Source: Candidatus Methanomethylophilaceae archaeon
GTDB taxonomy: Archaea; Thermoplasmatota; Thermoplasmata; Methanomassiliicoccales; Methanomethylophilaceae
Direction of reading: 5' to 3'
NCBI GenBank assembly: GCA_017935945.1
Contig: JAGBGN010000056.1
Span: forward strand, 1 to 34,416
DNA: 34,416 nucleotides
The notes under the pieces were generated by a model that worked only from the letters and a program-made list of their open reading frames with translations, did not search any database and was not told the origin of the DNA. Position 1 is the first letter of the stretch. Every line of letters starts with the position of its first letter. The position numbers and the translations under genes were made by a program. Below are positions 21,860 through 33,944 of the stretch, piece by piece.

Positions 21860-22666
21860 TCAAAGGGTGTTGTGACCTGTCCTGATCCTCTTGGGTAGGA
21901 CGAAGAGCTCACCATCGTCATCGAATCCGACGGATGCGGACACATCGTACACCCTCTCGATCAGTTCCGGGGTGATGACCTCCTTCGGCTTGCCGATACC
22001 CATGATCTCACCCTTCCTCATTATTATGCAGAGGTCGCAGTACCTTGCCATCAGCGAAATGTCGTGCTCGGCGACAAGGATGGTCATATCCTTCTTGACC
22101 ATGGCATTGAGGTACTCCATCACATCGAGCTTGTACTTCATGTCCAAATGGGATGTGGGTTCATCCACAAGCATCAACCTGGGCTCCTGGACGTATGCCT
22201 TGGCGATGAGGACACGTTGCTGCTCTCCGGATGAGAGCGCACCCATCTGCCTGTCCTGGAGATGCTCGACACCGAACTTCTTCAGGGCGTCGATCACGAC
22301 CCCTTCATCGTTCTCGGTCTCCCACCACATGTTCTTCAGGAACGGGTAACGGCCCATCATCACCGTCTCATATACGGTCAGACCAAAGCTGTTCCTGAGC
22401 TCCGCCGGGACGTTGGCCACCTTCTTGGCGACCTCGGCGGGACCCTTGTCCAGAACGGACTCCCCGTCGATCAGGATCTCCCCGGAGGTGGGGTCATGCA
22501 TCCTGTTGATGCACTTCATCATGGTCGACTTACCGCATCCGTTGGGTCCGATGAGTCCGACCAGCATTCCGGACGGGATCTTGTATGAGACCCCGCGGAC
22601 GGCGTGGTATCCGTCCTCGTAGTACTTGTGGAGGTCCCTGACCTCCAACAGGGGTGTTTCATCCAT
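21860..22666 (-). CDS. ABC transporter ATPase 1 (BtuD/FecE type)
   Basis: Cytoplasmic ATPase energising importer 1. The 268-residue protein has Walker A GLIGPNGCGKST, signature LSSGEQQRVLIAKA, Walker B RLMLVDEPTSHLD and the H-loop in AEHDISLMA. The C-terminal extension (after about 225) is typical of the FecE/BtuD group. Its ATG overlaps the end of the fusion permease (8 bases), so they are translationally coupled. It ends the four-gene operon. Confidence 0.92.
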   Translation of the reverse strand: MDETPLLEVRDLHKYYEDGYHAVRGVSYKIPSGMLVGLIGPNGCGKSTMMKCINRMHDPTSGEILIDGESVLDKGPAEVAKKVANVPAELRNSFGLTVYETVMMGRYPFLKNMWWETENDEGVVIDALKKFGVEHLQDRQMGALSSGEQQRVLIAKAYVQEPRLMLVDEPTSHLDMKYKLDVMEYLNAMVKKDMTILVAEHDISLMARYCDLCIIMRKGEIMGIGKPKEVITPELIERVYDVSASVGFDDDGELFVLPKRIRTGHNTL

Positions 22667-25481
22667 CGTACATCCTCCCCTTCTTGATCAGGAGATAGGC
22701 GAACACAGGTGCGCCTATCACAGTGGTGATCGCACCGACCGGGAGCTCCATGGGGATCATCACCATCTTGGAGAACAGGTCGGCGGCCAGCATCAACGCC
22801 CCTCCCACGACCATGGACGCGGGCATGACGAGCCTGTGATCCCCTCCGAGGATCATACGGCACAGGTGCGGGACGACCAGTCCCACGAATCCGATGATTC
22901 CGACGAAGGCCACACAGACCGCGGCCAAGACGGATGCCAGGATCAGCATCCACCTGTTGAATCTGAACACATCCAGACCCATCTGCCTTGCCTGGTCCTC
23001 TCCCAGGAGGACGAGGTTGAACTCCTTGGCCCAGATGAGTGGGACTATCGAGAGTGCGATGGCCGGAATCGCCATGATGATTGTCTGCTCCCATGAGATG
23101 TTGGCGAAGGAACCGAACAACCAGGACATGGCACTGTTCAGCTTGTCACCGGCCATGCTCAACAGGAGAGTCTGGATAGCGGAGAACACCAGTCCCACGA
23201 TTATACCGCCGAGGACGTAGTTCACCGAGGATCCTCCGGCCTTCTCGGCCAGCAGCATGGTGGTCCCGAATGCGATGAGACCTCCGATCATGGCCACGAT
23301 CGGTGTCGCATAGGTGACGTCTCCGAGCAGACCGAAGAACGTGAAGTCGAAGGCGATGGCTGCGACCGCGGCCACTCCGGCTCCTGATGATACACCCATG
23401 ATGTACGGGTCGACCATCGGATTGCGGATGATGGCCTGATAGATCGAACCGGATATGGACAGACCGATTCCGACGACGAATGCGGCGACTGCCCTGGAGC
23501 ATCTCGAATCGAAGATGATCGTCTCATCATAGGTCAGGGGTTCACCGGAGAACGTCTTCACGATGGCCGATGCCAGGATGGACAGGGACTCGCCGAGTCC
23601 GTAGTTTCCGGACGGTCCGAGTGCCAGACTGATGAGGAACAGGATGAATCCCAGTATGGACCCTATTATGAGGACGGTCACCAACCTGCGCTTGTTCCTC
23701 TTCACCTTGGAGGTACGGTCGTTGTTGAATCCGCTGATCTGCCTCAGTCTGCCGATGATGTACTGTACCGGGGGTTCCCCCTTGGTCCTCTTCACCCACA
23801 GACAGAGCACGACGAACAGCACCACGAGCACGATGATGACCGCTGCGAGGGTCTGGAGTGTGCCCCAACCGGCAGATGATACGGGCGACGGCATCTTTCC
23901 AGAGAACGCGAAGGCACCTCCGTCGGTACCGTTCAGCACCATTCCGTCGACGACGACGAGTCCGGTCATGGTCCATTCCCAGATCTCCTCCGGGTGCTTT
24001 ACCTGTCCGAGGATCTTCCCCTCGAGGTCCATCATGTAGAGATCCCCTCCGGCCTCGTACTCGACTGCGAACAGGGTGTCCCCGTTCACGAGTGTCAACG
24101 GTGCCTTGAAAGCATCCCCGTTGAATCCCCTGAGGACCTCCATGGATCCATCCAGGGATATCCTGACGAGACCATCGTAGCTCAACGTGTACACACCGGT
24201 GAAATCATCGTTGTCCACGGGTACGAGGTAGTTGGAGTTCACACCGACACCGGTGCAGTCGAAGACCTGCTCCAGTCCGGATGATGTGAGCCTGTATGCG
24301 GCCACACCTCCCTCCATGGTGTCCATGCCCTGTCCGTCGGAATACGACATGACCAGGATGTCATCGACGATGACAGGTGAGAGCACGCTTCCGTACTCCC
24401 TGACACCGACACTGGTCTCCTTGGTTATCGTGAACACCTTGACCGAATCGATCAACTCACCCGTGCACTGGTCGAATGCGTAGAGGCATCCGTCCAACGC
24501 ACCGGCGTAAACCACACCATCGTGGACGGTCGGCGACATGTAGTAACCACGACCGCCCATCGGGCTCTTCCAGATCACATCCAGGTCGAGGTCCACACAG
24601 TAGGTGTACGCATCAGCGGCGACGAAGTAGAGTGTACCGGAATCGTAGGTCACGGATGCTGGACCCGTGGAACGAAGGGTACCGATGACATCGTGGTCAA
24701 TCGTACGGGGGATGTCCAGGGATTCTACCTCGCAGTACCCCTCACCGGGTCCGGTCAGGGGGATCTTGTAGAGTGTGTAGTTTGAGGCGGGGATGTAGAT
24801 GTGCCCGCCGACGATCGCACCGGTGGCGGTCTCGTAACCGGCACTGCGCTCGTATTTGAAGCTCCACAGCTCCTCGCCTGTGAAACGGTCGTAGCAGTAG
24901 AGGGTCGGGTCGCTCTTGGCGGAGTGTCCTCCCCCATCGACGACGTATGCATGAGGTCCCTCCACCAGGATGGTCGAACAGACGAAGTTGGAGGAACCAT
25001 AGTGGTAGGCCCAGTCGACCTCGTAGTCGCCTGTACCGAGGACAGCATCCTGATGTCCGCTGGAGAGTGCATCCCCACGGATCATTGTCCAGGATGTCCT
25101 GTAGTCCGGGGTCTCCGTGGGGAGGACCCCCTCGGGATAGAAACCCAGGGCGATGGCGCCACCGGTGTATGCGGCGGACATGTCCACCTCGTCGGTGATG
25201 TCCGACCATGAACCACCGGTCCATCCGTACACCCTCCATTGGGATGTGACATGGCCTATGGTCATCTCCCCTTTCCCATCGATGACGATACCGTCATCGA
25301 GGATCAGTTCGATGCCGTCTGAAGCCAGGGCCTCGGACAGCACCTCCCCGTAAACTCCGTCCCCCAACCCGTACCAATCGGTGACTCCGTTGCCACCGTC
25401 GAGCAGGAGGACGTCCTCCGCATTAGCGCCGTCCGCCATGACCATCGGTATGGACACCGCTATGACGGCTATCATCAACAC
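22659..25481 (-). CDS. Fusion: transcobalamin-like domain + PQQ-type beta-propeller + FecCD/BtuC permease
   Basis: The 940-residue protein joins parts that are normally separate. Residues 1-22 are a signal-type hydrophobic segment. Residues about 23-130 are a domain like that of the neighbouring binding protein (SQWRVYGWTGGSWSDI, GFYPEGVLPTET). Residues about 130-535 carry PQQ-type propeller repeats such as LYCYDRFTGEELWSF and AGALDGCLYAFDQCTGELI. Residues 542-563 form an extra membrane helix, followed by a basic cytoplasmic linker (564-598). Residues about 599-940 are a complete FecCD permease with RCSRAVAAFVVGIGLSISGS, NPMVDPYIMGVSSGAG, GEDQARQMGL and GFVGLVVPHLCRMI. The frame is continuous, with no frameshift. 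The outside domains probably face the binding protein or ligand. The start may be the GTG at 25481 or the ATG at 25475. Confidence 0.88.
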   Translation of the reverse strand: MLMIAVIAVSIPMVMADGANAEDVLLLDGGNGVTDWYGLGDGVYGEVLSEALASDGIELILDDGIVIDGKGEMTIGHVTSQWRVYGWTGGSWSDITDEVDMSAAYTGGAIALGFYPEGVLPTETPDYRTSWTMIRGDALSSGHQDAVLGTGDYEVDWAYHYGSSNFVCSTILVEGPHAYVVDGGGHSAKSDPTLYCYDRFTGEELWSFKYERSAGYETATGAIVGGHIYIPASNYTLYKIPLTGPGEGYCEVESLDIPRTIDHDVIGTLRSTGPASVTYDSGTLYFVAADAYTYCVDLDLDVIWKSPMGGRGYYMSPTVHDGVVYAGALDGCLYAFDQCTGELIDSVKVFTITKETSVGVREYGSVLSPVIVDDILVMSYSDGQGMDTMEGGVAAYRLTSSGLEQVFDCTGVGVNSNYLVPVDNDDFTGVYTLSYDGLVRISLDGSMEVLRGFNGDAFKAPLTLVNGDTLFAVEYEAGGDLYMMDLEGKILGQVKHPEEIWEWTMTGLVVVDGMVLNGTDGGAFAFSGKMPSPVSSAGWGTLQTLAAVIIVLVVLFVVLCLWVKRTKGEPPVQYIIGRLRQISGFNNDRTSKVKRNKRRLVTVLIIGSILGFILFLISLALGPSGNYGLGESLSILASAIVKTFSGEPLTYDETIIFDSRCSRAVAAFVVGIGLSISGSIYQAIIRNPMVDPYIMGVSSGAGVAAVAAIAFDFTFFGLLGDVTYATPIVAMIGGLIAFGTTMLLAEKAGGSSVNYVLGGIIVGLVFSAIQTLLLSMAGDKLNSAMSWLFGSFANISWEQTIIMAIPAIALSIVPLIWAKEFNLVLLGEDQARQMGLDVFRFNRWMLILASVLAAVCVAFVGIIGFVGLVVPHLCRMILGGDHRLVMPASMVVGGALMLAADLFSKMVMIPMELPVGAITTVIGAPVFAYLLIKKGRMYDG

Positions 25482-25501: not shown

Positions 25502-26857
25502 TCAGATGGAACCCTCCTTTGTGATCGTGAGATAGTCACGGTACTCCCCGCCCACGAAATGGGGGATGACTATGCCGTCTCCGAAGATGTCACCGTGAAT
25601 TATCCTGGCCATCAATTCCGTCATCTGGGCGACACGGGGCCCTGCACGGGATGCCAGGTCGCAGGCCTCACCTGCGAGTAGGTAGATGTCACCGTTCCTG
25701 TACGCGGTGGTGCCGCGCCATTCGGATGACATGGAATCGATCATGGAATCGTACTCTTCCTGTGTGGCCGTGTAATCTGTGGATGCCACCACTATGACCG
25801 ATGGATCGTACTTCAGGATGGTCTCGGCGTTGACCTGCACCCATCCCGACTCCTTCGTGTAAATGTTGTATGAATGGACTATGTCCATGATATCTGAAAT
25901 GTATGTGTCGGAACCGGATACCCAGGGGGATTTGACGGCTGACAGGGATATCATCGTGGACACTTCATGTGTGTCGGAACCGGAATCGACGATGTCCCCA
26001 ATCTCCGATATCTGGGATGACACCAGGTCTATGTTCTCGACAGCCACATCGTTCTCACCTATCGATGTGCCCACCATGTAGATGTTGTCCAGGACCACGT
26101 CTATGTCCTCGGCACCGCTTATCACGAGGACGTCCACACCGTTGGACCTGAGCTTCTCGGACATCTGGACGTGTGCGTTCTGGTTACCCATGCACACCAC
26201 CAGGTCGGGATCCTGCTTGAGGACCATCTCGTAACTCGGGTTGGTGAATCCACCTATGACCTTGATCTTCCCGGTCTGCATGGCGGTGACCACCTCCGAC
26301 GGGTAGTTGCTGTACATGTCCGCACCGACTATGAGGTCGAATCCGCCCACGGAGCACAGTATCTCCGTACATGTGGGTGCCAGGGAGACGACCCTCGACG
26401 GCTCGTTGTAACCGTAGAAACATACACCTGTGGCATCGACCGCACGGGTTGGGACCTCGCCCTCATCACAGTGACCCCAGCAGAGTACCGTGTAATCATC
26501 CACCAGGACATCCGATGGGTCGGAACCTATCACAACCCAATCGTCGTCACCATGTGGAACACCGTAGAGTCCCCAGGATCCATCGGCTGAATTTCCAATG
26601 CCGTTTATGGAGACAATCTTCTCCCCTTCGAGTACGAGTTCGAAGCCGTTCAGGGCGCATGCATACTCGAGGGCGGATATGGAATCGGGATCCTCCTCGG
26701 AATCCACGGGAACATAAGTGACATCCCGGTCACCGAAATCGACCAGGATACAGGAATCTGTGGTGGACGATGCAGACGAGGCTGCAAGGATGGTCGCCAC
26801 AAGGCCTATCAACAGGATGGCCAGGGAAACCGCCACCTTAGCTCTGCTCGTCTGCAT
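25502..26857 (-). CDS. BtuF-like binding protein with N-terminal transcobalamin-like domain
   Basis: Surface-anchored solute-binding protein of importer 1. The 451-residue protein has a membrane anchor (about 9-30, no lipobox Cys); a domain at about 35-145 (LNGFELVLEGEKIVSI, GSWGLYGVPHGDDDW) like DUF4430/transcobalamin C-terminal; then a BtuF/FecB domain from about 154, with RVVSLAPTCTEILCSVGG and GADMYSNYPSEV, the latter close to BtuF-type vitamin B12 binders. It ends with a C-terminal segment (DLASRAGPRVAQM). AGGTGA before the ATG fixes the start. Ligand assignment to corrinoid is inference, not proof; iron-chelate cannot be excluded. Confidence 0.85.
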   Translation of the reverse strand: MQTSRAKVAVSLAILLIGLVATILAASSASSTTDSCILVDFGDRDVTYVPVDSEEDPDSISALEYACALNGFELVLEGEKIVSINGIGNSADGSWGLYGVPHGDDDWVVIGSDPSDVLVDDYTVLCWGHCDEGEVPTRAVDATGVCFYGYNEPSRVVSLAPTCTEILCSVGGFDLIVGADMYSNYPSEVVTAMQTGKIKVIGGFTNPSYEMVLKQDPDLVVCMGNQNAHVQMSEKLRSNGVDVLVISGAEDIDVVLDNIYMVGTSIGENDVAVENIDLVSSQISEIGDIVDSGSDTHEVSTMISLSAVKSPWVSGSDTYISDIMDIVHSYNIYTKESGWVQVNAETILKYDPSVIVVASTDYTATQEEYDSMIDSMSSEWRGTTAYRNGDIYLLAGEACDLASRAGPRVAQMTELMARIIHGDIFGDGIVIPHFVGGEYRDYLTITKEGSI

Positions 26858-26880: not shown

Positions 26881-27339
26881 TCAAGGTTTGAGTGTGGGTT
26901 TGCTCACGGGCTCGAAAGTATCCCTGTCGAGTCCTCCGTAGTAGAAGCAGTAGTACTCCACATCGGGCTCTATGGTACCGAGACCGACGGACATGCTCCA
27001 GTTCCAATCATCTATGGCCTCATCCCAGTAGAACTGGAGCCAGTAGATGTACTGGTCGGGATTGGATTCGTAATCACTGGATTTGTTCAGGATACTGACA
27101 ACGTTGTCCCCGTTGAACACACAGTCGATATCAGCGGACTTGAGTGCATCCTCTGCAGCCTCGACAGCTGTATCTCCGGAGCCCTCGCACCATTTGGTGA
27201 AATCCCCATCCTGGACGAGGAACTTGATGTTGTAATCATACTCCTCATCTGGACTGTCACCCATCATGAACGCTGCACCTGCAGCGGCGATGATGACCAC
27301 GACCACGACGGCCGCCAGAATTCCTTTGTTCATACCCAT
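26881..27339 (-). CDS. Small membrane-anchored protein with transcobalamin-like (DUF4430-type) domain
   Basis: The 152-residue protein has an N-terminal helix (about 7-25), a short acidic linker, and an extracellular domain (about 35-152) with LKSADIDCVFNGDNVVSIL, YIYWLQFYWDEAIDDWNW and VEYYCFYYGG. The layout (helix with an ALxSADI core, a short strand, W-rich strands, Y.C.Y) looks like the domain in the two following genes. It starts operon 1, directly behind the operator/TATA region. GTGAT stands 3 nt before the ATG at 27339. A role as a surface ligand-capture protein is plausible but unproven. Confidence 0.6.
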   Translation of the reverse strand: MGMNKGILAAVVVVVIIAAAGAAFMMGDSPDEEYDYNIKFLVQDGDFTKWCEGSGDTAVEAAEDALKSADIDCVFNGDNVVSILNKSSDYESNPDQYIYWLQFYWDEAIDDWNWSMSVGLGTIEPDVEYYCFYYGGLDRDTFEPVSKPTLKP

Positions 27340-27564: not shown

Positions 27565-28434
27565 TCATCCCGATTGAGCATTGTTCTCTAAAACCGAGGA
27601 ACATGCCAGGTCCGTCTCTTCGAACTCCTTGTTGTGTTCAGGTATGGGGTACTTGGCGATCATCACCAGTGCACCATCATGCTTGATGACATCCGCCTTC
27701 ACACCGTATACGGTCTCGATGTTCTCGGGAGTCATGACCTCCTCAGGGGTACCGCAGGCGATGATGTGACCTTTCTTCATCATGACGATACGGTCGCAGT
27801 ACTTTGCGACAGCATTGAGATCGTGTGCGGCGATGACGATCGCCATGTCCTTCTCGCGTTTGATCAGGTCCTTAAAGTACTGCATGACCTCCAAGGTGTA
27901 CCTGATGTCCAGATGGGCCGTGGGCTCATCGACCAGCATTATCCTCGGCTGTTGGACGTACGCCTTGGCGATCAGGGTCCTCTGCCTCTCACCGCTGCTC
28001 AGCTGGGTGATGTCACGATCGGCGAGATGGGACATGCCGTACATCTCGAGGGCGGCCCTGACGACCTCCTCATCCTTCTCGGTCTCCCACCACATGCTCT
28101 GCCTGTGGGGATACCTTCCGAGCATGACGACCTCGTAGACACTGAGGTTGAAATCCGGCGGGAACTCCGTGGGGATGTTGGAACACATCTTGGCCATCTC
28201 CTCCAGGGAGACCTTCGTGACATCCAGTCCACCCACCGTGAGCGAACCCGTGGAGAGTTTGAGGAGACCGTTGATGGTCCTCATCGTCGTGGACTTACCG
28301 CAACCGTTGGGTCCGATTATGGCCACGAGCTCACCGGCCTTTATGGAGAGCATTATGTCATGGAGTGCGTGGTATGTCTCGTACTCCACATTCACATTCC
28401 TTGCATCGATCAGGATGTTCTCGTTTTCAGGCAT
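27565..28434 (-). CDS. ABC transporter ATPase 2 (BtuD/FecE type)
   Basis: The 289-residue ATPase of importer 2 has Walker A GPNGCGKST, signature LSSGERQRTLIAKA, Walker B RIMLVDEPTAHLD and H-loop AAHDLNAVA. The C-terminal tail is about 20 residues longer than its two paralogues and rich in Glu/Asn. Overlap with the permease 2 stop suggests coupled translation. Last gene of operon 2. Confidence 0.92.
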   Translation of the reverse strand: MPENENILIDARNVNVEYETYHALHDIMLSIKAGELVAIIGPNGCGKSTTMRTINGLLKLSTGSLTVGGLDVTKVSLEEMAKMCSNIPTEFPPDFNLSVYEVVMLGRYPHRQSMWWETEKDEEVVRAALEMYGMSHLADRDITQLSSGERQRTLIAKAYVQQPRIMLVDEPTAHLDIRYTLEVMQYFKDLIKREKDMAIVIAAHDLNAVAKYCDRIVMMKKGHIIACGTPEEVMTPENIETVYGVKADVIKHDGALVMIAKYPIPEHNKEFEETDLACSSVLENNAQSG

Positions 28435-29479
28435 ATCCCTTACCCCTCCTCTTCAGAATGTACACGAAGAACGGAATTCCGACCAGTGTCGTGATCGCAC
28501 CGATGGGCAGGGTGACACTGGCCACATTGATCAACTCCTTAACGAGAAGATCCGCAGCGGACAACAACAATGCTCCAATGACCATCGATGCGGGGATCAA
28601 GAGCCTGTGGTCCCCACCGAGGGCCATCCTGGCCAAATGGGGGACTATGAGTCCCACGAAACCTATGATTCCAACGAATGAAACACAGATCGCGGTAAGG
28701 AACGATGCTATGAGCATCATGATGAGCCTGAAACTATCGTAGTTGACTCCGAGCTCCATGGCCTGCTCCCTTCCGAGCAGGATGACATTGAACGTCCTGG
28801 AGTAGATCATGATTATGAACGATATCACCAGGACGGGGATCAACATGATCATGCACATCTCCCAGGATATTGCTGAGAAACTTCCGTTGAGGAAACCCAG
28901 GATGTTGTGCGTCTTATCATCATTGGTAAGCATCAGGATGGTTGTCACAGCACTGAATCCCATGGCTGTGATGACTCCCGACAGGACGAAACTGACATTG
29001 TTGTTTCCACTGAACTTGGAAATCATGAACGTCATCATGAATGCAATGACTGCGAACACGAATGCGAATATGGGCATCGCATAGTTTCCTCCGAAACTGA
29101 GCGTACTGCTGAATATGATGATGAACAAGGTGGCTCCGAGACCTGCTCCCGATGATACTCCGGTCATGTATGGATCCACAAGGGGATTCCTGATAATCGC
29201 CTGGAACACGATACCTGCAACTGCGAGACCTGCACCGACTGCGAATGTCGCTAAAACCCTGGGCATACGGAGGTTGAATATCGTACGGTCTATCCCGGTC
29301 TCGACACCGTTGTTCAACACGTTCTTCAATGAATCCAGAACCGTTGAAAGCGGATAATTGACTGTACCACATGCCAACGACAGCAGGATCATGATCAATA
29401 ATGCGACTATACCGACACTGACGATGAGGACCAGGCGCCTCTTCATCCTTGCCGATGAACCGCTTATAACTTCTGTCAT
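28427..29479 (-). CDS. FecCD/BtuC-type permease 2
   Basis: The 350-residue permease of importer 2 has about ten membrane helices and the conserved motifs RMPRVLATFAVGAGLAVAG, NPLVDPYMTGVSSGAG, LGREQAMELGV and GFVGLIVPHLARM. The frame opens at GTG 29515, but that codon lies inside the intercistronic hairpin; ATG 29479 (MTEVISG) is preferred. Confidence 0.92.
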   Translation of the reverse strand: MTEVISGSSARMKRRLVLIVSVGIVALLIMILLSLACGTVNYPLSTVLDSLKNVLNNGVETGIDRTIFNLRMPRVLATFAVGAGLAVAGIVFQAIIRNPLVDPYMTGVSSGAGLGATLFIIIFSSTLSFGGNYAMPIFAFVFAVIAFMMTFMISKFSGNNNVSFVLSGVITAMGFSAVTTILMLTNDDKTHNILGFLNGSFSAISWEMCMIMLIPVLVISFIIMIYSRTFNVILLGREQAMELGVNYDSFRLIMMLIASFLTAICVSFVGIIGFVGLIVPHLARMALGGDHRLLIPASMVIGALLLSAADLLVKELINVASVTLPIGAITTLVGIPFFVYILKRRGKGYA

Positions 29480-29496
29480 TTTATCAAAAATGAAAT

Positions 29497-29515
29497 GTGG
29501 CGGTTGACCCGCCAC
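29497..29515 (-). terminator. Intercistronic hairpin after binding protein 2
   Basis: GTGGCGG/CCGCCAC stem (7 bp, 5-nt loop) between the binding protein and permease genes. Such hairpins commonly stabilise or partly end the message so that more binding protein is made than permease. A similar hairpin sits after binding protein 3 (32756-32767). Confidence 0.55.
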
Positions 29516-29527
29516 GGTTTAATGGTT

Positions 29528-30634
29528 TCAGTTCTCCGTGTATCCCTTCAGGATCTCATAGTTGGAATTGTCTATGAAATAGGGAAGGTCATCCAGTGTA
29601 AGGGTCTCTCCCGAGGGTGCTTTGTAACACTCGGGATTCATGTAGAGACTCATGACGGGAAGTGAGTTGAACACCGTGTAAGGCGTTGTCCTGGAGATGT
29701 CATCGTTTGCCTTCTCACACACGAATATGACATTTCCATTCTGCACAGCTGCACAGTTCGCCCATGCGGTCTTCTTCATCTGTTCAATGAGTTTCGCATG
29801 TGCATCTGCGTTAGGTGCGGAGTCTCCCCAGGTAACGAGAATAACCTCCACATCAGAGGTCTGAGTAGAGATGTAATCCGTGTCCAAAGGTGACCAAGAG
29901 TTACCTCCGACAGGATTGTTGATCTTGGCAACCTTGCTGATCAGCTCACTTGCAGTGGACTCAACGCCTGCTGCATAAACACCGGATCCATCGAAAGATG
30001 AGATACTGTCGAAGTTACCGTTTTCATCGACTCCCCAAAGACTTCCGAGACCTGTGGTGATTATGACCTTAGTAGGTGATGCGGACTTGGTATTCTCAGA
30101 AATATCCTCGACGCTGTCCCTCATCTCATCGATGATGTCATCAGCCTTGTCTTCGCAACCGAATATGTATCCGAAGATCTCGATGTTCTTGTATATTCCC
30201 TCGTATCCATCATCGGATCCGAATGTCAGTACAACATTCATTCCAGATGCCTTGAGGGTATCGTATGCTGCCTTGGATCCACTTCCAGAATTGTCGAGGA
30301 AGGAGACATCCGCATTGACAGTGGAGATTGCATCGGTATCAGGACTGTAGTAGCTTCCACAGATCTTGACATCTGCAGGAATAAGCGGGTTATTACAATA
30401 AGAAACAACACCGACGAGCTTGTCACCGTAACCCATGTAACATATTGTATCAACAATGGAAGAACTGCATCCTGTAATCGAATCAACACCATTCAGTTTC
30501 TTGATCTGGTTACCAGCAGCATCAACCATTGTCTTGGAATCGCTATCATCGTCACCGTTCGTGAAGATGACAGCGCATGCTGCAATCGCTATGATAGCGA
30601 CTGCCGCGACTGCAATGATTTTCTTGCTGTCCAT
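29528..30634 (-). CDS. Iron/corrinoid-type substrate-binding protein 2
   Basis: The 368-residue protein of the FecB/BtuF fold has an N-terminal membrane anchor (about 5-24, no lipobox), an Asp-rich linker, then DAAGNQIKKLNGVDSITGCSSSIVDTICYMGYGDKLVGVVSY and a two-lobe pattern joined by a long helix (about 190-210). It lacks the N-terminal extra domain of binding protein 1. GTGAT 3 nt before the ATG fixes the start. First gene of operon 2, with a TATA-like TTATAAAT and operators upstream. Confidence 0.85.
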   Translation of the reverse strand: MDSKKIIAVAAVAIIAIAACAVIFTNGDDDSDSKTMVDAAGNQIKKLNGVDSITGCSSSIVDTICYMGYGDKLVGVVSYCNNPLIPADVKICGSYYSPDTDAISTVNADVSFLDNSGSGSKAAYDTLKASGMNVVLTFGSDDGYEGIYKNIEIFGYIFGCEDKADDIIDEMRDSVEDISENTKSASPTKVIITTGLGSLWGVDENGNFDSISSFDGSGVYAAGVESTASELISKVAKINNPVGGNSWSPLDTDYISTQTSDVEVILVTWGDSAPNADAHAKLIEQMKKTAWANCAAVQNGNVIFVCEKANDDISRTTPYTVFNSLPVMSLYMNPECYKAPSGETLTLDDLPYFIDNSNYEILKGYTEN

Positions 30635-30842: not shown

Positions 30843-31655
30843 TCAGTTCAGAGGACCATCGACACCGAACCTGGTGGAACCCGTGGGCAGCACATACACC
30901 GTACCTTCCTCCACGACCACCTTGACCCTTATGTCGAACACCTCTTGGATCGATTCCTCGGTCACGACCTCCTCGGGAGTACCGTATTTCAGGATGTGTC
31001 CCTTGGACAGGAGCAGTATCCTGTCACAGAACCTCGTCAGGAGGTTGATGTCATGGGATGCTATCAGGACGGTGAGGCCCTGTCTGCTCAGGTTGCGGAG
31101 GATCTCCATGATCTGGACCTTGAACTTGATGTCGAGATGTGCACTGGGCTCATCCACGAGGATCACCTTGGGCGTCTGGACCAGACCCTTGGCCAGGAGG
31201 ACACGTGCCCTCTCACCGCTGCTCAACTCATGGAGTCTCCTGTTGGCATAATGGGCGATACCCATCCTCCACATCGCATCGTTGACAAGTTCCTCGTCCT
31301 TCTCATCCTCCCACCATATGGTCTTTATGAACGGCGAGCGCCCTAGAGCGACGTAGTCCCTGACCGACAGGGAGAAATCCACAGCGGTGTCCGCCGGAAC
31401 CGTGGTGCAGATCCTGGCGATCTCTCCCATGGACAGTTCCATTATGTCCTCCGAATCGATCTTGATTGTTCCACCGGATGGTTTGTTGATCTTGTTGATG
31501 CAGCGCATCATCGTTGTCTTACCGGAACCGTTGGGCCCCATCAAGGCGACGAACTCCCCGGGCATTATCTCGAAGTCGATGTTCTTCAACGTACCCTCAT
31601 CGGAATAGCTGAACGCCATCTCGGAGACTTCCAGCATGGGTCCATCAGATGACAT
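30843..31655 (-). CDS. ABC transporter ATPase 3 (BtuD/FecE type)
   Basis: The 270-residue ATPase of importer 3 has Walker A GPNGSGKTT, signature LSSGERARVLLAKG, Walker B KVILVDEPSAHLD and H-loop ASHDINLL. Its start overlaps the permease 3 stop by 11 bases. On the minus strand a TTTTTTT tract (30797-30803) past its stop may end operon 3. Confidence 0.92.
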   Translation of the reverse strand: MSSDGPMLEVSEMAFSYSDEGTLKNIDFEIMPGEFVALMGPNGSGKTTMMRCINKINKPSGGTIKIDSEDIMELSMGEIARICTTVPADTAVDFSLSVRDYVALGRSPFIKTIWWEDEKDEELVNDAMWRMGIAHYANRRLHELSSGERARVLLAKGLVQTPKVILVDEPSAHLDIKFKVQIMEILRNLSRQGLTVLIASHDINLLTRFCDRILLLSKGHILKYGTPEEVVTEESIQEVFDIRVKVVVEEGTVYVLPTGSTRFGVDGPLN

Positions 31656-32727
31656 AGCGCTTTCCCTCCTTTACCATGAGGTATATGAAGAACGGCACAC
31701 CGATCACGGAGATTATCGCACCGATCGGCAGTTCACCGACGGTGAAGCTCCTGCAGAATACATCGGCAATGAGGAGGACGACGGAACCTATTATCGCACT
31801 GGTTGGGAGAAGAACCCTGTTGTCCCCTCCGACAACCATCCTGCAAAGATGCGGAACGATCAATCCAACGAAACCTATGACACCGCAGAAACAAACACAA
31901 AATGCGGACATGACTGCCACGAGCATCAACATGTTCCTCTTGAACTTCCTGGAATCCAGACCCAGATACCTTGCCTGATCCTCTCCGAGGAGCATCATGT
32001 TCAGGTTCCTCGCGAACGCCAGGATCACGAACAGTATGCAGAACACGAACAAAACCACGATCAGAGCCTCGGACCATTCGATGTTAGCGAAACTACCGAA
32101 CATCCATGCTGTGACGGAATGCATCTTGTCTGCACTAAACGACATTATCAGGGTTGTTCCCGCGCTCAGACCTAGACCGATGATCGTTCCTCCGAGAACA
32201 TAGCTCATCGCTTTACCACCAGCAGCCTCTGCCACGACCATGGTGACCGTGAATGCGACCAATGCACCGATGATCCCTGCAACGGGTACAAGCCACAACG
32301 TGGCGAAGGAGGTTGTCACCAAACCACTCAATGTTACCAACATCACACCGAATGATGCTCCGGAGGACACTCCTGTGACATATGGGTCCACCAGGGGGTT
32401 GTGGATCAGTGCCTGCATCACCGCCCCAGCTACAGCCAATCCTGCACCGACTGCTATCACTGCTAGAGAACGGGGCATCCTCTGATGTAGGATAACGATT
32501 CCACTCATGCTATCCGGATCCCCACCGGTCTGGAAAATGACCACTAGTTGATCCAGGGCCTCGGTGAAAGAAACGGGATATATGCCCATTGTCAGTGAAT
32601 AGATGTACAACAGCAGTACCGACAGTAAACCTAGAATCACTATGGCACGAGCTCTGCGTCTAATCGTTTTCACACCAACGACCTTGCCCATCACTTCTTC
32701 CTGAAGTTTGAGGGCATCATCTACCAT
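31645..32727 (-). CDS. FecCD/BtuC-type permease 3
   Basis: The 360-residue permease has RMPRSLAVIAVGAGLAVAG, NPLVDPYVTGVSSGAS, GEDQARYLGL and GFVGLIVPHLCRM. GGAGG 6 nt before the ATG at 32727 fixes the start (MVDDALKLQ); longer frames to 32799 read into the binding protein gene. The long N-terminal cytoplasmic part (about 30 residues) is unusual compared with BtuC but shared with permease 2. Confidence 0.92.
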   Translation of the reverse strand: MVDDALKLQEEVMGKVVGVKTIRRRARAIVILGLLSVLLLYIYSLTMGIYPVSFTEALDQLVVIFQTGGDPDSMSGIVILHQRMPRSLAVIAVGAGLAVAGAVMQALIHNPLVDPYVTGVSSGASFGVMLVTLSGLVTTSFATLWLVPVAGIIGALVAFTVTMVVAEAAGGKAMSYVLGGTIIGLGLSAGTTLIMSFSADKMHSVTAWMFGSFANIEWSEALIVVLFVFCILFVILAFARNLNMMLLGEDQARYLGLDSRKFKRNMLMLVAVMSAFCVCFCGVIGFVGLIVPHLCRMVVGGDNRVLLPTSAIIGSVVLLIADVFCRSFTVGELPIGAIISVIGVPFFIYLMVKEGKRYVI

Positions 32728-32755
32728 AATACGCCTCCTTAAAATTGGAAATGAA

Positions 32756-32767
32756 GGGGATGTCCCC
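32756..32767 (-). terminator. Intercistronic hairpin after binding protein 3
   Basis: GGGGA/TCCCC stem with a 2-nt centre between the binding protein 3 stop and the permease 3 start, equivalent in position to 29497-29515. Confidence 0.4.
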
Positions 32768-32774
32768 CTCGGTT

Positions 32775-33881
32775 TCAATCGGTTTTGGACTCCACCCACT
32801 TGATGCTGTCCTTCCAGTCCTCATCGGTAAGGATCGTGGGTACTTCCAGTCCAAGGCCCTCTGCACTCACGATGGATGCGACAAGAGCATGACCCTCTGC
32901 AAAGTGCACAGTGGAGTAGCCGGTAGCCTGCATGGGATCGTACTCAAGACAGTATGCCTTACCCTCTTTGAACACATCGAGGTTTCCGAGGATGGGGTCT
33001 GCGTTCCACTTCTCGAGCTCCTCCTCCCAGTTCAGACCCATTGACATGTCATCGAATATTATGATGTCAGGATCTGCAGCAGCGATGGCTTCCTTAGATA
33101 CTGTCGCGAAAGACTGGGTTGTGGGAAGTGCATTGACACATCCCAATGATTCCGCCACATCCATCACTTCAGACTGGTTGTAGATGTAGAAGCTACCGAA
33201 ACAGTAGCATATCTTGGCTACCTTCAGACCAGAAACAGTGGGTGTTGCCTTCTTGATGTCGCTGACGAAATCATCGATCTCATTGCATATCTTCTCTGCC
33301 CTGTCGGATGCTCCGATGGCCTTTCCGAGGAGTGTGTAGTTCTCCTTGATGATCTCCCATCCGGAATCGGTGTTGAGAACGAACACGGTCACACCGGCAT
33401 TCTGAATCTGCGTCATGCGTGATGCATCACTGGATATCTGGTTGTAATCCATGATTACGAGTGTTGTTTCACGGTTCTCCTTACCCTCACCTACGGCTGC
33501 AAGAACGGACTCTGCAGTCCATGAACCCCATTCACCTATGCTCTTGACCTTTCCTTTGGCGATGTCAGATTCAATCGATGCAGGATAATCGAATGTCATA
33601 TCAAAACCGAGAATCTTGCTTTCAACATCGTAGATTCCCTCATCGCTTGTTGCTCCAACGATCCTGTCCCTGAAACCGAGGTCGGCAATCATCTCAGCAG
33701 CCGTCACCGTTGTGGATATGAACTGTTTGGGAGTCTCATCAAAATCGATAACGTTACCATACGAATCGGTAACCGATCCGGGTTTTTCCTGGTCATCGGA
33801 TGTCATGAACCATCCGACACCGACTGCAGCGACCAGTATCACCGCGGCGATGCCTATGACCATCATCTGATTCCTTTCCAT
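32775..33881 (-). CDS. Iron/corrinoid-type substrate-binding protein 3
   Basis: The 368-residue FecB/BtuF-fold protein has an N-terminal membrane anchor (about 6-25), then SVTDSYGNVIDFDETPKQFISTTVTAAEMIADLGFRDRIVGATSDEG, a lobe-linking helix and a second lobe with IAAADPDIIIFDDMSMGLNWEEELEKW. The open frame extends to GTG 33944, but that reads through a hairpin; ATG 33881 directly precedes the anchor. First gene of operon 3, divergent from the chelatase gene. The ligand is not evident. Confidence 0.83.
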   Translation of the reverse strand: MERNQMMVIGIAAVILVAAVGVGWFMTSDDQEKPGSVTDSYGNVIDFDETPKQFISTTVTAAEMIADLGFRDRIVGATSDEGIYDVESKILGFDMTFDYPASIESDIAKGKVKSIGEWGSWTAESVLAAVGEGKENRETTLVIMDYNQISSDASRMTQIQNAGVTVFVLNTDSGWEIIKENYTLLGKAIGASDRAEKICNEIDDFVSDIKKATPTVSGLKVAKICYCFGSFYIYNQSEVMDVAESLGCVNALPTTQSFATVSKEAIAAADPDIIIFDDMSMGLNWEEELEKWNADPILGNLDVFKEGKAYCLEYDPMQATGYSTVHFAEGHALVASIVSAEGLGLEVPTILTDEDWKDSIKWVESKTD

Positions 33882-33928
33882 TTCATCTGCCCCTATTGTC
33901 TGAAATCGTGTCATTCGCAGCAACCCTT

Positions 33929-33944
33929 GTGGACTGCGGTCCAC
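33929..33944 (-). promoter_or_regulatory. Leader hairpin of operon 3
   Basis: Perfect 6-bp stem GTGGAC/GTCCAC with a 4-nt loop in the expected 5' leader of binding protein 3, between the TATA box and the chosen ATG. It does not match a cobalamin riboswitch, which is far larger. Confidence 0.35.

Follow-up and report, generated by a model that had tools for sequence, protein, structure and literature searches.

A BtuC-type permease fused to a predicted extracellular beta-propeller and a DUF4430-like domain in Methanomethylophilaceae: a likely subunit of a corrinoid importer

The window analyzed here, that is, the whole 34,416-nucleotide stretch of DNA from a Candidatus Methanomethylophilaceae archaeon, carries on its minus strand a gene in which a BtuC-type permease is preceded, in the same reading frame, by a DUF4430-like domain and a beta-propeller. 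The gene, its parts and its neighbors are as follows.

22659..25481, minus strand: fusion gene, 940 aa from GTG, comprising signal/anchor, DUF4430-like domain, propeller, transmembrane helix, basic linker and BtuC-type permease
Residues 1–22 of the fusion protein: signal/anchor
25056..25415, minus strand: DUF4430/SLBB (transcobalamin-like) domain, residues 23–142 (hhalign, AlphaFold2)
23883..25040, minus strand: beta-propeller of the BamB/PQQ_2 type, residues 148–533 (PF13360, Foldseek)
23781..23861, minus strand: extra transmembrane helix, residues ~541–567 (hydropathy; AlphaFold2 helix 541–567)
23670..23780, minus strand: basic linker, predicted cytoplasmic, residues ~568–604 (charge count)
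22662..23669, minus strand: FecCD/BtuC permease, residues 605–940 (PF01032, fold match to BtuC)
21860..22666, minus strand: BtuD-type ATPase of the same operon (PF00005)
25502..26857, minus strand: 451-aa protein with a DUF4430-like domain (36–150) and a BtuF-type binding protein (154–447) (PF01497, BtuF among the PDB matches)
26881..27339, minus strand: stand-alone membrane-anchored DUF4430-like protein, 152 aa (PF14478 matches in relatives)
27565..30634, minus strand: second BtuCDF-like system, without outside module (binding protein 29528–30634, permease 28427–29515, ATPase 27565–28434)
30843..33944, minus strand: third BtuCDF-like system, without outside module (binding protein 32775–33944, permease 31645–32799, ATPase 30843–31655)

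The 940-codon frame at 22659–25481 contains no internal stop. An initial annotation of this DNA had described it as uninterrupted and as holding all of these domains, which is borne out, except that the strand had to be corrected to minus; neither of the two findings on which it would have given up the fusion, an interruption of the frame at residues 540–600 or a lack of the fusion in relatives, was encountered, as the frame is open there and the fusion recurs. The true start probably lies elsewhere than the GTG, and a CTG at 25505 is favored. This codon is in frame with the fusion gene, stands 7 nt behind AAGGAGGG (read by eye in the upstream sequence), where the ribosome-binding site looks ideal by eye, and overlaps the stop codon (TGA) of the preceding gene; initiation there would add MKGTSIAA, the start expected for a signal peptide of the fusion protein. 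Two tRNAs were the sole RNA matches in the window, with no riboswitch or other RNA among them.

The AlphaFold2 model of the fusion protein (mean pLDDT 83, 38 sequences) displays a small alpha/beta domain corresponding to the DUF4430-like part, a complete propeller, one extra helix, the linker and the permease. PF01032 (FecCD) covers residues 613–933 with 275 bits against a cut-off of 26.5 (E 9e-82, profile 4–311/311), and the top fold matches of the whole protein are BtuC (2qi9_A, TM-score 0.89 by target) and other FecCD importers, followed by BamB-like propellers. Because the cut-offs of the NCBIfam BtuC equivalogs were missed (PRK09535, 213.5 versus 461 bits; PRK03784, 200 versus 334 bits), the permease is classed from its sequence as a relative of BtuC and not as a certified ortholog. 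Arg660 and Arg663 of the permease part, which we take to be the equivalents of BtuC Arg56 and Arg59, the arginine pair that docks BtuF, are invariant in 38 of 38 fusions. The propeller, with eight blades by our own count from the DSSP line, scored above the cut-off of PF13360 (PQQ_2; 34.2 versus 27.6 bits) and retrieved BamB and YxaL in Foldseek with E about 1e-13. As for the domain search and structure prediction by which the initial annotation had proposed to check the fusion, Pfam found the permease and the propeller and AlphaFold2 gave the layout, the N-terminal domain being left without a Pfam match.

Residues 564–604 contain 12 Lys/Arg and 2 Asp/Glu residues (net charge +10), and the extra helix, predicted by hydropathy and AlphaFold2, would put the N terminus of the permease inside the cell. 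Since the linker is strongly basic, the outside part of the protein is acidic, and the split form described below resembles a type I membrane protein, the propeller and the transcobalamin-like domain are most likely located outside the cell.

In the Pfam search, the N-terminal 145 residues of the fusion protein gave nothing meaningful, the cut-off of PF14478 included, and the identity of this domain was approached through profile comparisons. The fused domain matched the DUF4430-like domain of the binding protein in hhalign with 96.9%, and the latter matched PF14478-type proteins with 95.9% in a profile–profile comparison; the fused domain itself gave 55% against a PF14478-type profile of 35 proteins and 4.6% against one of only five PF14478 proteins, which is too shallow a profile. 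Most classes of these DUF4430-like domains are mutually related at 94–97%. Moreover, some stand-alone relatives match PF14478 (DUF4430) with E down to 4.4e-6, and the DUF4430 proteins of the ECF operons described below score above its cut-off. The fused domain is modeled with a pLDDT of 91.5 in an alpha/beta layout resembling a beta-grasp; the best fold matches are beta-grasp domains (Raf RBD, ubiquitin), weak ones with E 0.17 or worse, and the DUF4430-like alignments, run as profiles against PDB, yielded chance-level matches only. As judged from these comparisons, the fused domain is probably a divergent DUF4430-like domain, tied to DUF4430 through profiles only. DUF4430 is presumably the Pfam name of the transcobalamin-like SLBB clade. 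That usage is supported by PMC4350170. For this clade of the SLBB beta-grasp superfamily, passages of PMC1796856 predicted extracellular B12 scavenging in 2007, and in human transcobalamin this domain type holds cobalamin jointly with the alpha domain (PMC5599065).

Related DUF4430-like domains thus occur in three proteins of one operon: the fusion, the 451-aa binding protein and the 152-aa protein. The initial annotation had missed the domain on the 451-aa partner and had not recognized the 152-aa partner as a stand-alone domain of this type. In relatives, the BtuD-type ATPase adjoins either the fusion or the fusion together with a second permease. The best PDB match of the binding protein is 4m7o, named an iron-binding protein, with BtuF second. 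Its Glu210 is present in 66 of 66 relatives and its residue 345 is acidic in 65 of 66, and phmmer aligns these two Glu positions with those of BtuF. Because the docking arginines (38/38) and their acidic counterparts (66/66, 65/66) are kept, the binding protein appears to be still in use, and the module would then add capture or tethering to the conserved docking. The BtuF aromatic corrinoid-contact positions Y50, W66 and W196 are occupied by Tyr in 62/66, by Tyr or Phe in 66/66 and by Trp in 65/66 binding proteins, respectively; as the neighboring binding protein P0004 also has some of them, they are not taken as proof of corrinoid binding.

The fusion was found in most of the genomes searched (31 of the genus, 63 of the family Methanomethylophilaceae). 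It amounts to 44 loci, counting the window genome and related genomes, and its conservation in relatives, which the initial annotation had made a test, is confirmed with up to 66% identity over the whole length. Identities across most genera of the family are 40–66%, the closest full-length relatives being 66% identical; among named relatives, the nearest are ruminant-gut genomes of Candidatus Methanomethylophilaceae. An assembly artefact or frameshift as the source of the fusion is ruled out by this conservation, because the same fusion occurs in most genera of Methanomethylophilaceae. The fusion is real, old and conserved.

Domain annotation of about 60 regions and 16 further ones revealed additional layouts. 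In the split layout (24 permeases, including the special case of L110), a separate DUF4430-propeller protein, in most cases with a C-terminal transmembrane helix, is encoded directly before a bare permease; in L110 (family f4), the propeller is joined to the binding protein and not to the permease. Nine loci, and one more by tree position, have the fused permease plus a second bare one. That the propeller is fused to the permease, encoded directly before it, or fused to the binding protein is evidence that these proteins form one machine. In a maximum-likelihood tree, all module-bearing permeases of the fused, split and tandem layouts form one clade (100/97); one fusion with losses and two fusions require three changes on the tree either way. 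The two other permeases of the window are separated from that of the fusion by path lengths of >3.7 changes per site. They lack the outside module, as noted initially, and the initial view of a specialized permease is correct, but on these distances they are distant relatives rather than sister copies, so that a local family by recent duplication is not upheld.

The genes around the propeller loci point to the substrate. At 19 of 60 propeller loci, against 1.2 expected, the cobinamide salvage hydrolase CbiZ is encoded no more than 10 kb away, an enrichment that we read as "not chance" only, because the related genomes are not independent and the statistic ignores shared ancestry; the linked loci belong to about seven genera of two families, and CbiZ mostly follows after ~3 kb in the same orientation. 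Indeed, 12 fusion loci (L046, L050, L052, L054, L055, L061, L068, L070, L071, L076, L078 and L175) share the uniform order [DUF4430-BtuF]-[fusion]-[BtuD]-[aminotransferase]-[CbiB]-[CbiZ]-[CobS]-[CobY], where the aminotransferase is of the CobC/D type, CobY is counted where the stretch reaches far enough, some operon ends being cut by it, and the salvage block of L175 is on the opposite strand. Salvage genes follow the propeller–binding protein fusion of L110 as well. By its gene content, this uniform operon combines the uptake of corrinoids with the subsequent salvage of cobinamide. None of the genomes examined from the genus to which the window belongs has CbiZ less than 10 kb away from the locus, so that for the copy in the window itself the substrate is assigned by homology. 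The salvage operon also occurs in genera g6 and g8, there with a bare permease (L169–L172), so that the module is an addition and not essential. In L169, L171 and L172, both the propeller and the DUF4430 domain of the binding protein are missing; that the binding protein is also without this domain in three of the four bare-permease loci fits a joint role of both. L170 and L173 keep the DUF4430-type binding protein without any propeller.

In other families of Thermoplasmatota, a homologous DUF4430-propeller-transmembrane protein, not fused to BtuC, heads ECF operons. The module is followed by [DUF4430]-[CbiQ-type T]-[double ATPase]-[S] in families f3, f6 and f17, and close variants in a different order occur in f8, f18 and probably f42 (cut contig); the separate DUF4430 protein is usually, not always, present, and in L109 a CobY-like gene adjoins the operon. 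Comparison of two of the S components to every sequence in PDB gave 6fnp, CbrT, as the sole significant match (E 8.7e-10 and 1.7e-12). ECF-CbrT is a demonstrated importer of B12 and cobinamide, unrelated to BtuCDF (PMC5997447). Because the S component matches CbrT, the same outside module appears to serve two unrelated importer types with a common substrate. The substrate class is very probably corrinoids. The initial annotation had overlooked this substrate class together with the salvage operon, the split and binding protein-fused versions and the ECF-CbrT link.

Collectively, the fusion protein is likely to be the BtuC-type subunit of a corrinoid importer that carries an outside capture or docking module in the same chain; the docking or ligand-binding role initially suggested for the propeller is plausible. 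The DUF4430-like domain and the propeller would stand outside the cell, and the extra helix would span the membrane with the basic linker inside, so that the permease begins on the correct side. The module may capture corrinoids (vitamin B12, cobinamide and relatives), keep the DUF4430-BtuF protein close, or both; for direct capture, we see about an even chance. The corrinoid would probably be handed over from the module to BtuF, which would dock on the permease by the usual contact of two Glu and two Arg residues, BtuD powering the import. In relatives, CbiZ, CbiB, CobS and CobY would convert the corrinoid taken up to the cobamide that the cell itself uses. More tentatively, by analogy, the module may be a propeller receptor that evolved apart from Bacteroides, in which the DUF4430-like domain and the propeller clamp the corrinoid and pass it to DUF4430-BtuF, and which is portable between ECF-CbrT and BtuCDF importers. 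The clamp is modeled on the two domains of transcobalamin.

BamB and its relatives often serve as scaffolds. As these are the closest folds of the propeller, the propeller and the DUF4430-like domain may, with a smaller but appreciable chance, bind no corrinoid and only tether two partners to the permease, namely the stand-alone DUF4430 protein and the binding protein. The mutually related DUF4430-like domains in three proteins of one operon favor such tethering, as does the joint lack of the propeller and the binding protein's DUF4430 domain in L169, L171 and L172; on the other hand, L170 and L173 retain the DUF4430-type binding protein without a propeller, and the module serves ECF importers as well, where there is no separate BtuF-kind protein to tether. 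It is much less probable that another metal chelate or cofactor (siderophore, heme, F430-like) is imported and that the corrinoid neighbors are a lineage-specific accident: FecCD permeases have a wide range of substrates, salvage genes are lacking near the locus in the window and an iron-binding protein is the top PDB match of the binding protein, but the salvage operon recurs in about seven genera of two families, a CbrT-like S component occurs in unrelated operons, and transcobalamin-type domains are found in three proteins. PKD domains are common in archaeal surface proteins. They accompany the propeller in L113, and a PKD-like stretch is visible by eye in L110, which would suit a propeller anchoring the transporter to polysaccharide of the cell envelope or of a partner cell, as passages of PMC1796856 suggest for multidomain SLBB proteins; given the close tie to two types of B12 importer and the lack of any sugar-binding family match for the fusion protein in the Pfam search, this is highly improbable. 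A redox-handling module had been raised initially; a PQQ-dependent one that reduces or decyanates the substrate outside the cell has the name of the repeat family and nothing else in its favor and is scarcely credible, as PF01011 (PQQ-dehydrogenase) stayed below its cut-off of 26.7 with 15.4 bits, none of the cysteines form an adjacent pair (Cys 168, 196, 250, 295, 332, 339 and 409 only), the best propeller folds are BamB and YxaL, and pqqE is reported absent from Methanomassiliicoccales (PMC10804542).

If the corrinoid importer reading is true, the fusion would be an unusual case among ABC importers, its permease bearing a large outside module covalently while the separate binding protein is retained. 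Gut Methanomassiliicoccales make methane via corrinoid-dependent methyltransferases, and gut and rumen communities are shaped by competition for B12; an importer-borne receptor would provide a concrete, testable route of corrinoid capture in these archaea, functionally parallel to BtuG, as well as a function prediction for unnamed DUF4430-propeller proteins across Thermoplasmatota.

Many divergent BtuC proteins have been described as a mark of Methanomassiliicoccales, with B12 handling suggested as an advantage (PMC10804542). The words propeller and fusion are absent from the main text of that 2024 survey of BtuC diversity in the order, and a full-text search of open-licence papers found no description of a propeller fused to BtuC. 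Compared with E. coli BtuCDF, the permease, ATPase and binding protein here are of the same families and have the docking Arg and Glu residues in common, whereas E. coli BtuC is bare with ~330 aa and its BtuF lacks a DUF4430-like domain; the present permease is joined to ~520 residues of outside module, and the binding protein carries such a domain. Passages of PMC1796856 report SLBB/DUF4430 proteins with CbiO/CbiQ operons and note propeller fusions and paired SLBB proteins, of the same kind as the ECF form here; those passages describe no fusion to BtuC or BtuF, whereas the present module is covalent and on a BtuCDF importer. The S component beside the unfused module in other families is homologous to that of ECF-CbrT (PMC5997447), whose published complex is without the propeller; that importer type is unrelated to BtuCDF and is absent from the window locus. 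BtuG, which in Bacteroides captures corrinoid and passes it to BtuB, is likewise a surface propeller on a B12 transporter in gut microbes (PMC10404256, PMC6143338), from which capture is proposed here by analogy. Negative surface charge had been tried as BtuG-like evidence and was dropped, the other outside proteins of the window being acidic too. BtuG is absent among the best 50 fold matches of the fusion protein, and by its modeled fold the propeller here belongs to a different family: BtuG has seven blades and sits as a lipoprotein on a TonB-dependent barrel of the outer membrane, whereas the present propeller is of the BamB/PQQ_2 type, with eight blades by our own count, and is anchored by a transmembrane helix on an ABC permease.

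The true start of the fusion gene is probably a CTG codon at 25505-25503, which shares bases with the TGA stop of the upstream gene, as CTGA, and is preceded by AAGGAGGG at a distance of 7 nt. Judging from the sequence, translation from this codon would add eight residues to the fusion protein and give it a normal signal-peptide start.

25505-25519, (-) strand: candidate CTG start and ribosome-site region of the fusion gene, by sequence inspection

In the related loci L057, L059, L066, L067, L071, L075, L079 and L097-L099, a bare permease copy lies after the fused permease, and the fused and bare permeases of these tandem loci form sister clades in the maximum-likelihood permease tree, which suggests that the two may pair as heterodimers carrying a single propeller. 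The propeller itself is interrupted between early blades by an extra segment, tens to about 150 residues long, in L064, L069, L072, L073, L077 and L079, and one split-form propeller gene carries a stop.

L088:7524-9422: split-form propeller gene with a TAA stop breaking the frame, seen in one genome

L169-L172 contain the same salvage operon as the fusion loci, but with a bare permease, and three of these four loci encode a binding protein that is likewise missing its DUF4430-like domain; this joint absence of both modules represents either joint loss or the original state. The genome carrying the window (G000, 1.57 Mb) encodes about 16 full-length FecCD permeases, an unusually high number.

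Two further multidomain proteins were noted in related loci.

L044:10452-13076: a tandem pair of complete DUF4430-BtuF units within one protein of 874 aa
L110:484-3618: single chain of 1044 aa that unites a propeller, a PKD-like part, TM helices, a DUF4430-like domain and a BtuF

In the L110 chain the same parts are linked up in another order.
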